From positions 398,501-462,500 of the forward strand of contig CAJNDT010002891.1 in the NCBI GenBank assembly GCA_905221615.1: a stretch of 64,000 bases of DNA. The letters are read 5' to 3'. Below, one piece after another: positions 2,400 to 58,853 of this stretch. Source of the stretch: Symbiodinium sp. CCMP2592 (taxonomy: Eukaryota > Sar > Dinophyceae > Suessiales > Symbiodiniaceae). A program made the position numbers and the translations under genes. Every line of letters begins with the position of its first letter. Position 1 is the stretch's first letter. The notes below the pieces were generated by a model. The model was not told where the DNA came from, ran no database searches, and worked only from the letters and a program-made list of their open reading frames with translations.

Positions 2400-2467
2400 T
2401 TTCAACTGAGCTTTCCGGTGTGGGACATGTCGAAGATCGGCCCTGGCCTCTCTGGATCTCCAGGGAT

Positions 2468-3008
2468 TCAGGAGTTCAAGGGTTAGGGTGTAGGGAGTTC
2501 AGGAGTTTAGGGTTTGGCGTTTAGGGTTAGTTGGGGTTTAGGGAGTTAAGGAGTTTAAAATTTAGGGTTTGGGGTTTAGGGTTTAGGGTTATGTAGGGTT
2601 TAGGGAGTTCAGGAGTTTAGGGTTTCGGGTTTAGGGTTTAGGGTTTAGGGTTGGTTGGGGCTTATTGGTTAGGGTTTAGATTTAGGGAGTTTAGGAATTT
2701 AGGGTTTGGGGTTTAGGGTTTAGGGTTATGTAGGGTTCAGGGAGTTCAGGAGTTTAGGGTTTGGGGTTTAGGGTTTAGGGTTAGTTAGGGTTTATTGGTT
2801 AGGGTTTAGGGAGTTTAGGAGTTTAGGGTTTGGGGTTTAGGGTTTAGGGTTATGTAGGGTTTAGGTAGTTCAGGAGTTTAGGGTTCGGGGTTTAGGGTTT
2901 AGGGTTGGTTAGGGTTTGGGGAGTTAAGGAGTTTAGGGTTCAGGGTTTAGGGTTAGTTGGGGTTGGTTAGGGTTTCGGGAGTTCAGGAGTTTAGGGTTCG
3001 GGGTTTAG
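2468..3008 (+). repeat. interstitial telomere-like minisatellite (TTTAGGG variants)
   Basis: About 540 bp built from TTTAGGG and variants (TTCAGGG, TTTGGGG, TTAGTTGGGG). They form a longer repeating unit of about 55-70 bp that begins with GGGAGTTCAGGAGTTTAGGG and often ends GGGTTATGTAGGG. TTTAGGG is the plant-type telomere repeat, also reported for dinoflagellates. The array is degenerate and flanked on both sides by ordinary sequence and by palindromic elements at 2246 and 3078, so it is interstitial and not a chromosome end. Confidence 0.85.
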
Positions 3009-56066: not shown

Positions 56067-56594
56067 TACCAATGCCATGATCCGTGTATGTTGTGAACCC
56101 TCGCCTAGACAGCTATATGTATGCTGTTGCGTTGCAGAATGTGTCGTGGCCTCTTGCCGTGCAGCTCCTAGCCAGCCGTCGCTTTCGATTGATCTTGCCA
56201 GTCGTGCGAACTGATGTGCTGCCACGACACAAGCGGATCACGTGAGACAAGAAGGGTGGACCGTCACAGGATGAATTTTCGAAACAGTTACGTGGAAAGC
56301 CATCGGATCGGTACTCTTTGTTGAGCGATCAGCAGAACAAGCATTGCCTCCTTCAGCGCCAGGCCCGCATGGAAACCTGACCGGTGCTGAAAACAGCGAG
56401 TGCTTGCGTAAGTGTTTTGTGGGCTGTGCAGTGCTTCAGGGGTTGAGGGTTGGGATGGAAGTTTTCGGGTTTGACCTGGAGTTTGGGGTTCGCAGTTCAG
56501 TCCGCATAATTGTCTTGTGCAAGGGTTGTGCAGTAGTTCTTCAGAGGTTCAGGGTCGGGCTTGGCACCGCGTAAAGCTAGGGAGAGAGACACAC
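56067..56594. other. unassigned sequence
   Basis: Nothing recognised. Purine-rich stretches lead into the GA tract. Confidence 0.5.
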
Positions 56595-56598
56595 AGAC

Positions 56599-56629
<31 letters not shown>

Positions 56630-56630
56630 A
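56595..56630 (+). repeat. (GA)n tract, left flank of tagged gene
   Basis: GAC and GA repeats become nearly pure GA from 56599 to 56630 and end directly at the spliced-leader copy. A second GA tract in the same orientation lies at 58749-58853. Confidence 0.9.
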
Positions 56631-56649
56631 GTAGCCATTTTGGCTCAAG
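56631..56649 (+). other. genomic copy (relic) of the dinoflagellate spliced leader
   Basis: GTAGCCATTTTGGCTCAAG matches exactly the last 19 of the 22 bases of the conserved dinoflagellate spliced leader, which is added in trans to nuclear mRNAs. It normally occurs in the genome only in spliced-leader RNA genes, where a splice donor GT follows. Here the next bases are TA then ATG, with no donor, so this is a relic of a mature mRNA copied back into DNA. Such relics upstream of genes are known in dinoflagellates as marks of recycled processed cDNAs. The first three bases are missing, and the copy begins exactly where the GA tract ends. Confidence 0.93.
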
Positions 56650-56651
56650 TA

Positions 56652-58100
56652 ATGCACCTGTGCTTTGGGGTCTGTGACGCCCCTTTGCCGGGGGGGGAGG
56701 CAGGGGGTTGGCCTGGATTGTAACTCCGGGAGAGCCTTCCTGTCTTCCCCAGCATTGCTTGAGTCTGCATACCGCATACCCGTTGCCACTTTGTTTAAGA
56801 GGCCCCTTGTAGGCTCGCTCAACCTGGAACCCGACCGCAGCCCTTCTTCGGAAGGTGGCCCGCTAGTAGGGGGAAAGGGCATACTTTTTGCCTGTGGACC
56901 ACACGGTGATCTCGCAAAGTACCGGTACCACGTCTACTTCGATGGCAAGCTCTTCAAAGAACCCCACGACGGGGGGGAAGACGGGCAAAGGGGGAGACAG
57001 CGCTTGAGGTCTCCATCTGTAAAGCCCGCAAAGGTCAACACCACCTGGGAAAGCAATGTAAGTTGGCAGAAGTGCTCAAGGAGATGGGGGTGAGTTGCCT
57101 TGCGTGTTTGCAAGGCCCCTTCTGCCACAAAGCTCATGAGCCGGGGGAAGGATGCTACAAGACCATGGTCGCCAACGGCACCTTCACCAGCACGGGGAGG
57201 GCATGTGACCTCCTACGCGGGGGAGCTGCGCAGAAAGTACTGGTGCAGACCCGCAGCCCAGAGGACGCTGAAGGCGGGGGAGGTGGGAAGCCATGGGCAC
57301 GTTTCGTCCGCTTCGAAACAGAAGGCGGCCTGGCGTTGTTGTGTGAACCAGGACCGCTCGACCGGTGGATCGGGAGAGACATCCACTACCTCTGGCGTTC
57401 CCAACAATATGTGGGCTGGACGACGGGGGAACCACTGCCGGATGAGGAAGCCGCCGACTACAAGTGCTACCTGCAGCGCCACAACGAAAGGCGAGCCACC
57501 GGCAGGAATGCCGACAAACCCGTGGAGCTGGTGGCGAATCACAACCCACGTATAGAAGAGGAGCTGAGGATCTACGTGGGGAGGTTTCCGTGGAAGGTCG
57601 CCCCACTCTTGTCTCAGGCGAAACGGGTCTTCAACACATCTCGTGAGGGGGATGAGCCAGCGAAGCCCGAGCACAAGAAGACCAAAAAGGCGGAGAAGTC
57701 CGAGCACAAGAAGACCAAGAAGGAGGGGAAGACCAAAGACCGAAAGCGCCGCAAAAACAAGAAGGAGCACAAGGACAAGAAGAGCAAGCCCGACGACGAA
57801 CAAAACCGTACACCTGCTGCACCGGGGGAGGGGACACTCCCGACGACGGGGGAGGTGAATGACGATGCACCGGACTGGGGGAGCGACAGCCTCAACGAGA
57901 ATGTCGACCAGGACGACGCCAGCCAGACTCCGGGGGGGGCAGAGAAACCCACGGCCAGTTCGAGCTCTACCTTGGAGGCTCAAAGGCCTCGTTCACCAAG
58001 CCGCAGCCCTCTGAGAGTCAACCTCCGACCCAACCCGAGTTGGAGGGCAGTGCAGCAAGTCCAACAGCATATGCGGGCCAGCTGCGAGCGACGACGATGA
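56652..58100 (+). CDS. spliced-leader-tagged gene with zinc-finger-like and Lys-rich regions; frameshifted
   Basis: Function unknown. The ATG at 56652 lies two bases after the spliced-leader relic. Coding-like sequence covers about 480 codons in three parts. (a) 56652 to about 56700, MHLCFGVCDAPLPGGEAGG. (b) About 56700 to 56980 in another frame, which has no ATG of its own (e.g. AKYRYHVYFDGKLFKEPHDG). (c) From about 56985 back in the first frame to TGA 58098-58100. Both switches fall at G runs (8 and 5 G near 56687-56708; 7 and 5 G near 56971-56994). Part (c) starts with a Cys/His-rich stretch containing C-x2-C-x5-C-H-x2-H-x5-C (about 57090-57150), possibly zinc-binding. A soluble domain follows with EGGLALLCEPGPLDRWIGRD and later YVGRFPWKV. 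Then come a Lys-rich repeat (57660-57790, two HKKTKK units), an acidic segment and a Ser/Pro/Arg tail (RSPSRSPLR). The tail suggests a nuclear or nucleic-acid-binding protein. No introns are apparent, as expected of a processed copy. It may be active with sequencing errors, or a pseudogene. Confidence 0.75.
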
Positions 58101-58748
58101 ACAAAGTGAGTGAAGGCGTGTGTAACAAGTTTTGAGGGAGCGATGGGGGGGGATGTGTCCTTACTGGGTTTGCTTTGTTGCTCTTTTGGGGGATGACACT
58201 GACCTGCCCTCGTTCCCGTAATGCATCCTAGCTGTCATGCACTTGCACAGACCTTCGATCTTTCGTTGCGACGCCACTGTGTACCTGGAAGTACCAGCGA
58301 AGCTGCGTCCCGGTGTGAATTCTTTATACGGGCCGACATGGCCCTTCTCGGGCAAACTCACTCCAATGGGCTGGACAAAGGTCCCTAATCCTAGTTTCTT
58401 TTCAGCACACCTTTCGCGACTGAATTCGGGGGACAAGAGGCCATAATTCGCCCCTTTCCGACCTTGACATGTCCAGAGTAACCCGTGTGAAACCGCGGGG
58501 AACAGCATGCCTTTTCCTCTTGCTCCCGGAGAAGGCCGGTATATGCTCTGCATGGTTCGCTGCTTTAGCTTTTGTTTGGGCACTGTTGTTGACTCTGGGG
58601 GGGGACAAATACCCACCTTCTCTCTTTACAAGTAAAGCCGAGCCCCTTTCCGTGAAACCGACGGGGGATAGTGGACAACCCGTGAAATGCGGGTGTGCGA
58701 ACTCGCACAGGGGGAGGGCCCTGGACGCTGGCCCGATCCCTACGCCCG
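58101..58748 (+). other. 3' flank of the tagged gene, inside the GA-bounded segment
   Basis: 650 bp between the stop codon and the second GA tract. It has the same G-run-rich style (GGGGGG at 58145-58151 and G8 near 58597). No poly(A) stretch is seen before the GA tract. A forward frame at 58469-58740 could encode a short peptide with one hydrophobic segment (ICSAWFAALAFVWALLLTLG), and a reverse frame 58161-58616 is also open. Neither is supported. Probably 3' untranslated region. Confidence 0.4.
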
Positions 58749-58784
<36 letters not shown>

Positions 58785-58853
58785 GGACAGAGCGAGAACG
58801 AGAGCGACAGCGGGAGCGAGAGAGCAAGAGAGAACGAGAGAGAGAGCGAGTAC
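58749..58853 (+). repeat. (GA)n tract, right flank of tagged gene
   Basis: Pure GA from about 58749 to 58782, then imperfect GAGCGAGAACGAGAGCGAC repeats to about 58853. Same orientation as the tract at 56595-56630. Confidence 0.9.

Follow-up and report, generated by a model that had tools for sequence, protein, structure and literature searches.

A Spliced-Leader-Headed, Probably LINE-Dependent Retroelement at GA Microsatellites of Symbiodinium

Results

The Locus and Its Modules

The stretch 56,631–58,748 of the window (the whole 64,000-nucleotide piece of Symbiodinium sp. CCMP2592 DNA analyzed here) is, in our confident judgment, the decayed copy of a retroelement that lands in GA repeats, encodes a protein, and is not autonomous but relies on LINE (non-LTR retrotransposon) machinery. 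It belongs to a dispersed family whose copies start with a spliced leader (SL), lie between GA flanks and share modules and a conserved protein. The original prediction had taken it for a retrogene, processed from a single host gene. That reading is most likely wrong; the family of retroelements to which the stretch belongs, headed by SLs and sited in GA, is most likely tied to LINEs. The predicted reverse transcription of an SL-bearing RNA and its sharply bounded insertion at GA were supported.

The dinoflagellate SL has 22 bases, and the relic, GTAGCCATTTTGGCTCAAG at 56,631–56,649 (+ strand), corresponds to the final 19; it is the sole match to that SL in the window when up to three mismatches were allowed. 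A chance match was ruled out, because none arose in 100 shuffles and the exact 19-base relic occurred 716 times genome-wide (375 forward and 341 reverse, in 1,098,105,373 bases on 5,383 contigs), against 0 for the reversed pattern. Upstream, a GA-rich tract detected by Tandem Repeats Finder at 56,582–56,629 stops one base short of the relic; the 5′ target side is placed at 56,582–56,630 (+), and GA-rich 5′ flanks were also present at 13 of the 16 other family 5′ ends. A second GA tract follows at 58,751–58,850 in the same orientation. Both the relic beside (GA)n and the second tract had been predicted and were borne out. With GA on both flanks, a target-site duplication is indistinguishable from the repeat.

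Within these tracts the + strand carries a 5′ module that includes the relic (56,631–56,911) and is common to the shorter elements L057, L058, L060, and L063, its first part being related to the starts of L001, L013, L015, and the reverse transcriptase (RT)-coding L016. An open stretch with the conserved protein core (56,910–58,100; 396 codons plus stop) comes next, and then a 3′ module (58,280–58,748): of 47 family match rows, five cover the part from element position 1650 or 1651 to the end. The last part, GTA(GA)n at 58,749–58,850 (+), is either tail or 3′ target side, and most relatives have the same junction, CCCG-GTAGAGAG. The proposed bounds of 56,631–58,748 fit the family well, since copies begin at the SL and the common 3′ part reaches 58,748; the query ended at 58,748, and that common part extends a few bases (GTA) further into GA. 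No Rfam family and no tRNA were found in the window. Elsewhere in the window, positions 2462–3008 hold a long degenerate TTTAGGG-like array, an interstitial telomere-like repeat.

A coding region starting at the TA-ATG behind the relic, as had been proposed, did not hold up. The frame of the ATG at 56,652 stops at 56,721–56,723 after 23 codons, and relatives carry TACTGC, TGCTGC, or TGCCAC at the position of TA-ATG; a coding start here was rejected on both grounds. Upstream of 56,910–58,100 the frame is broken by stops and a change of frame, and the window copy is a decayed, broken copy of the element. Two window ORFs scanned against Pfam gave no RVT match, so that this copy does not rank as an autonomous LINE, and tblastn of ORF1 and ORF2 of the LINE at L064 (see below) against the window gave no match at E up to 1. 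The lack of an RT in the window element counts against a LINE-linked reading.

A Dispersed Repeat Family

With 40 of 229 candidates scored, the 2,118-bp insert had at least 47 match rows in the genome, itself included; the single-copy retrogene was rejected on this multi-copy result. Relatives of whole or nearly whole length were 96, 84, 81, 78, and 76% identical and the others partial, some of them confined to about positions 1–281 or 1–501. Elements of ∼1.2 kb (L057, L058, and L060) have positions 1–281 and 2049–2118 in common with the window element, the 5′ and 3′ modules surrounding other, non-matching middles, and 3′-module matches also occurred without the coding part. Rows at the same places as L040, L041, L042, and L055 (L044, L052, L056, and L059, respectively) were dropped. 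No intron-like interruption was evident in the 30 loci fetched out of the at least 47 rows.

Flanks of up to 1,000 bases (only 100–250 bases on the 5′ side of L061, L062, and L066) were compared, 45 pieces in all; L032 and L039 proved to be duplicates of one locus, and seven further similarities were short, at 40–99 bases. The flanks thus differ among copies, indicating separate insertions. The copies are dispersed, agree at the 3′ end, and vary at the 5′ end through SL truncation, as those of a non-autonomous, LINE-dependent element do. Scans of viral contigs with the window ORF, L064 ORF2, and GA plus SL found no relative.

At most family 5′ ends a GA-rich tract leads into an SL, either whole or shortened; at L035 the SL is nearly all gone. 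The 3′ ends are mostly GCCCG-GTA(GA)n, varying as CCCG-G(T/A)A(GA)n, with GGAG or GGAA at the junction in L051, L054, L057, L058, and L060. By a threshold of our choosing (GA or AG at 60% of the steps in a 24-base stretch), GA-rich flanks were present at 14 of 17 5′ ends and 22 of 22 3′ ends, against a background of 0.2% of window positions on both strands; each count includes the window copy (L031), and the 5′ end counted for L043 is that of a second element downstream. The family is therefore inserted at one simple repeat well above background, which supports the earlier suggestion that GA tracts act as landing sites. Three 5′ flanks, those of L032 and its duplicate L039 (AGAC repeat) and of L054, were not GA-rich and count against it.

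Element ends may themselves supply GA. At L043, L046, L054, and L067 an element end, GA, and the next SL follow consecutively (the SL of L046 being degenerate), so that later insertions can use the GA of an element end. Among 22 GA-sited SLs, the GA tract followed an element-3′-end-like motif in six, by a rule of our own writing under which L015 is doubtful.

The Element Protein

Three copies of a related subfamily (L061, L062, and L066) are 98–99% identical over about 2.2 kb, suggesting recent movement. All three are preceded by a GA tract and followed by a short GA run, their flanks are unrelated to one another, and the frame is open for 524–525 codons from the SL. One frame listing lacked the L066 frame, presumably because frames running off the end of a locus were omitted.

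For dN/dS the protein core was aligned from ten open copies, only copies with a recognized open core being taken in. Among L031, L034–L037, L041, and L047, 20 of 21 pairs had dN/dS of 0.10–0.37, and the remaining pair had 1.5 on six differences. In the 21 pairs with L061, L062, or L066, synonymous distance was not computable in 15 and exceeded 2 in six. The low ratios indicate purifying selection on the protein core of the open copies. In the protein, a zinc-finger-like motif rich in C and H can be made out by eye, as can a lysine-rich tail; Pfam gave only matches below the curated cut-offs and PDB no match of note. Single-sequence structure prediction for window 57,063–57,688 was uninformative (mean pLDDT 35).

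Links to LINEs

At L064, GA and an SL are followed by ORF1 (354 aa) and ORF2 (963 aa), both open from stop to stop. ORF2 matched RVT_1 (E 6.9e-18) and PDB reverse transcriptase chains, several of them named R2 retrotransposon protein (best E 1.1e-9). Its N-terminal part had only a sub-threshold endonuclease match (Exo_endo_phos_2, E 0.098), and what we take to be apurinic-type endonuclease motifs can be read there by eye. No GA run of more than three units occurred in about 3.6 kb downstream of ORF2; GA is known on the 5′ side of L064 only, which counts against GA on both sides for the autonomous LINE.

A tie to the window family came from L016, where the SL heads a 5′ module of window-family type and then partial RT coding (RVT_1, E 4.1e-10). 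No GA precedes this SL, a point against the GA-landing reading. RT is thus encoded at L064 and partly at L016, and no complete RT partner carrying both window-family ends was found among the loci examined.

ORF1 relatives of L064 follow GA-sited SLs at L017 and L029 and an SL outside GA at L010, and a second ORF1-like group follows SLs at L002, L004, L006, and L014. The two groups are related, with an hhalign probability of 98.3 at 11% identity (four sequences each) and a blastp match of L002 to L017 at E 1.4e-4. For the second group, no RT occurred within 1.5 kb after the SL, the extent covered. One further truncated SL was present at L002, L006, and L014, and two at L004, the pattern expected if a new SL is spliced onto an AG inside an older relic.

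SL Relics Across the Genome

The first 30 of the 716 relics, taken in list order and not as a random draw, were surveyed. In 13 the SL was followed by a window-type 5′ module (L001, L013, L015, L016, and L018) or a LINE-type ORF1, either of the L064 group (L010, L017, L029, and L020, the last being the same place as L064) or of the second group (L002, L004, L006, and L014). L009 and L027 have only a short motif after the SL in common, and the other 15 loci fell into no class.

A search for GA enrichment upstream of SL relics, proposed in the original prediction as a check, covered these first 30 of 716: tracts of (GA)5 or more ended within 12 bases upstream of the SL at eight of 30 loci, against a background of 0.0017, and the probability of at least eight by background is ∼4e-16 if the loci are independent. 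The corresponding count for (TC)5 was zero of 30, but TC is so rare around these SLs (background 0) that the zero says little alone. Genome-wide, (GA)5 followed by 0–12 bases and an SL 16-mer had 124 reverse-strand matches, one per site among the matches listed, and 628 forward matches, which count overlapping registers of one tract; the junctions vary among the matches listed.

Other repeats also preceded SLs. CCCTAAA telomere-like repeats lay within 12 bases upstream at seven of 30 loci (L003, L004, L011, L014, L019, L023, and L028) against a background of 0.0085, and TTTAGGG at none (background 0.002). L004 and L014 carry LINE-type ORF1s, and CCCTAAA repeats are possibly a second landing site. 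TATG/TATA-type repeats precede the SL at L006, L025, and L030, L006 having a second-group ORF1-like frame.

Some of the surveyed loci had features of other kinds. A long open frame after the SL at L022 (1–1515, -) looks tyrosine recombinase-like by eye, and frames of ∼500 codons follow the relic at L011 (1537–3018, +) and run through it at L023 (3–1526, -); none of the three had a Pfam match at 0.01. At L024 (1456–1556) the relic appeared by eye to lie in an inverted repeat, ∼45 bases before the SL being the reverse complement of bases at and after its 3′ end.

The 13-base SL core had one mismatch in 247 positions over 19 family copies, located at a truncation junction, and the 130 bases after the SL averaged 83% identity to the window in the same copies; the comparison left out L035 (SL nearly lost) and L039 (duplicate), included L065, which was chosen by its SL, and relied on an exact core search to place L043, L054, and L055, whose 5′ ends had first been detected by similarity. 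If the SL is added anew in every cycle, this would explain both the nearly invariant core and the near-complete SLs of diverged subfamilies despite frequent 5′ loss. Tandem SLs are absent from the window family, for which re-addition is deduced from other lineages.

Discussion

We infer a cycle with a helper LINE, trans-splicing of the element RNA, and target priming. The element RNA would receive its SL at the 5′ end by trans-splicing. Copying of this RNA by the RT of the helper LINE would take place at a GA microsatellite, with the GA at the end of the RNA probably base-paired to the nicked TC strand. The cDNA would usually reach the SL at the 5′ end of the RNA, which would account for most 5′-complete insertions beginning with an SL that misses none or some of its bases, L035 having lost nearly all. 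GA at the element end could then serve as the next insertion site and lead to head-to-tail stacking, an arrangement that was seen at some loci.

Two other explanations place the origin of the stretch in host genes. Capture of one host mRNA, inserted once in a GA tract, would produce an SL relic with GA on both sides, and dinoflagellates are known to have SL retrogenes (PMC6050394). The copy of a single gene would not, however, form a multi-copy family with recurring ends and with modules common to other bodies, nor would it come with dispersed near-identical copies of a related subfamily or place its 5′ module before RT-coding DNA; an intron-interrupted copy was not evident in the fetched loci either, and we regard this origin as decidedly improbable. 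Alternatively, a host zinc-finger-like gene family could be spreading by retroposition through LINE machinery, its low dN/dS reflecting host selection. The conserved coding core, with 20 of 21 pairs at low ratios, and the missing RT would suit such a family. Nevertheless, the modules surround unrelated middles in the 1.2-kb elements, the 3′ module occurs without the coding part, and dN/dS was drawn only from copies with an open core, making this improbable as well.

The remaining alternatives concern how the SL came to head the element. It could have been acquired once and inherited since as element DNA, retained as a promoter or other signal and not re-added per cycle. A constant junction between SL and body in the window family, the absence of tandem SLs there, and a core that barely varies, as a selected signal would, are all consistent with inheritance, and we consider it unlikely without dismissing it: 5′ losses are common and irreparable by DNA copying, yet diverged subfamilies retain near-complete SLs, and further truncated SLs accompany the SL-headed ORF1s of L002, L006, and L014 (one each) and L004 (two). 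The RT could also have switched template from the element RNA to free SL RNA, in which case the SL was never spliced on. LINE reverse transcriptases can switch templates. The SL part ends at CAAG, which is the splice-donor end of the SL, and in the junctions read it is the family’s own sequence that follows, so that template switching has very little probability. The decayed LINE-dependent element, with an SL joined to its RNA by trans-splicing, remains the best explanation.

By extension, it is conceivable, and we propose it only tentatively, that dinoflagellate LINEs renew their 5′ end in each cycle by SL trans-splicing and so make good in the RNA what insertion has cost them at the 5′ end, that GA ends of older copies are landing pads for newer ones, that the same machinery makes retrogenes from other SL-capped mRNAs, and that many well-preserved SL relics are LINE-type ends and not host retrogenes. 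SL-tagged retrocopies and microsatellite-inserting LINEs, known separately, are here joined in one system. The locus points to machinery that may recycle mRNAs into dinoflagellate genomes, and it makes testable which RT does so. Many of the SL relics that have been taken as evidence of gene retroposition may be ends of mobile elements. In S. tridacnidorum, 496 SL sequences were counted (PMC8045281). Recent movement is suggested by the 98–99% identical copies, although Symbiodiniaceae LINEs were regarded as left over from an ancient expansion (PMC8045281).

SL-tagged retrogenes and mRNA recycling in dinoflagellates were described by Slamovits and Keeling (cited in PMC6050394, PMC3229502). As there, an SL relic marks the 5′ end of an RNA-derived insert, and related loci here have tandem truncated SLs; unlike there, it is a mobile-element family and a LINE that begin with the SL, and GA is where they land. 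Splicing of a new SL onto an AG inside an older relic was described for host genes (PMC3229502). The type of retrotransposon mediating retroposition was called unknown, with Ty1/copia favored, in the relevant passage of PMC6050394, and retrotransposons or LINEs were discussed as possible mediators in passages of PMC12014239, PMC11453091, and PMC10235124.

Insertion into simple repeats is shared with non-LTR retrotransposons specific to microsatellites, such as Togen, which inserts at (TG)n, and certain HERO families, as summarized in PMC4640811; the 5′ SL, the GA target, the dinoflagellate host, and the lack of an RT in the window copy set the present element apart. SymbioLINE-Dnmt of Symbiodinium comprises two-ORF LINEs that lack poly-A and have conserved UTRs on the 5′ and 3′ sides (PMC5890265). 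L064 is likewise a two-ORF dinoflagellate LINE, but SymbioLINE-Dnmt has a DNMT in ORF1 and target-site duplications, whereas L064 ORF1 had no DNMT match; the phrase ‘spliced leader’ had 0 matches in the available text of PMC5890265. Among the titles and abstract openings listed in literature searches, no account of SL-headed, GA-sited LINEs was found.

HAL1-type half-LINEs depend on LINEs, having kept one ORF and lost the RT. The window element resembles them in its probable LINE dependence, its one ORF, and its lack of an RT, a likeness in layout. An association of LINEs with the SL is also found in SLACS, the target of which is the SL exon. NeSL, too, inserts into SL exons according to the section concerned of PMC4640811. 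In these elements the SL gene is the target, whereas here the SL lies inside the inserted cDNA and the target is GA.
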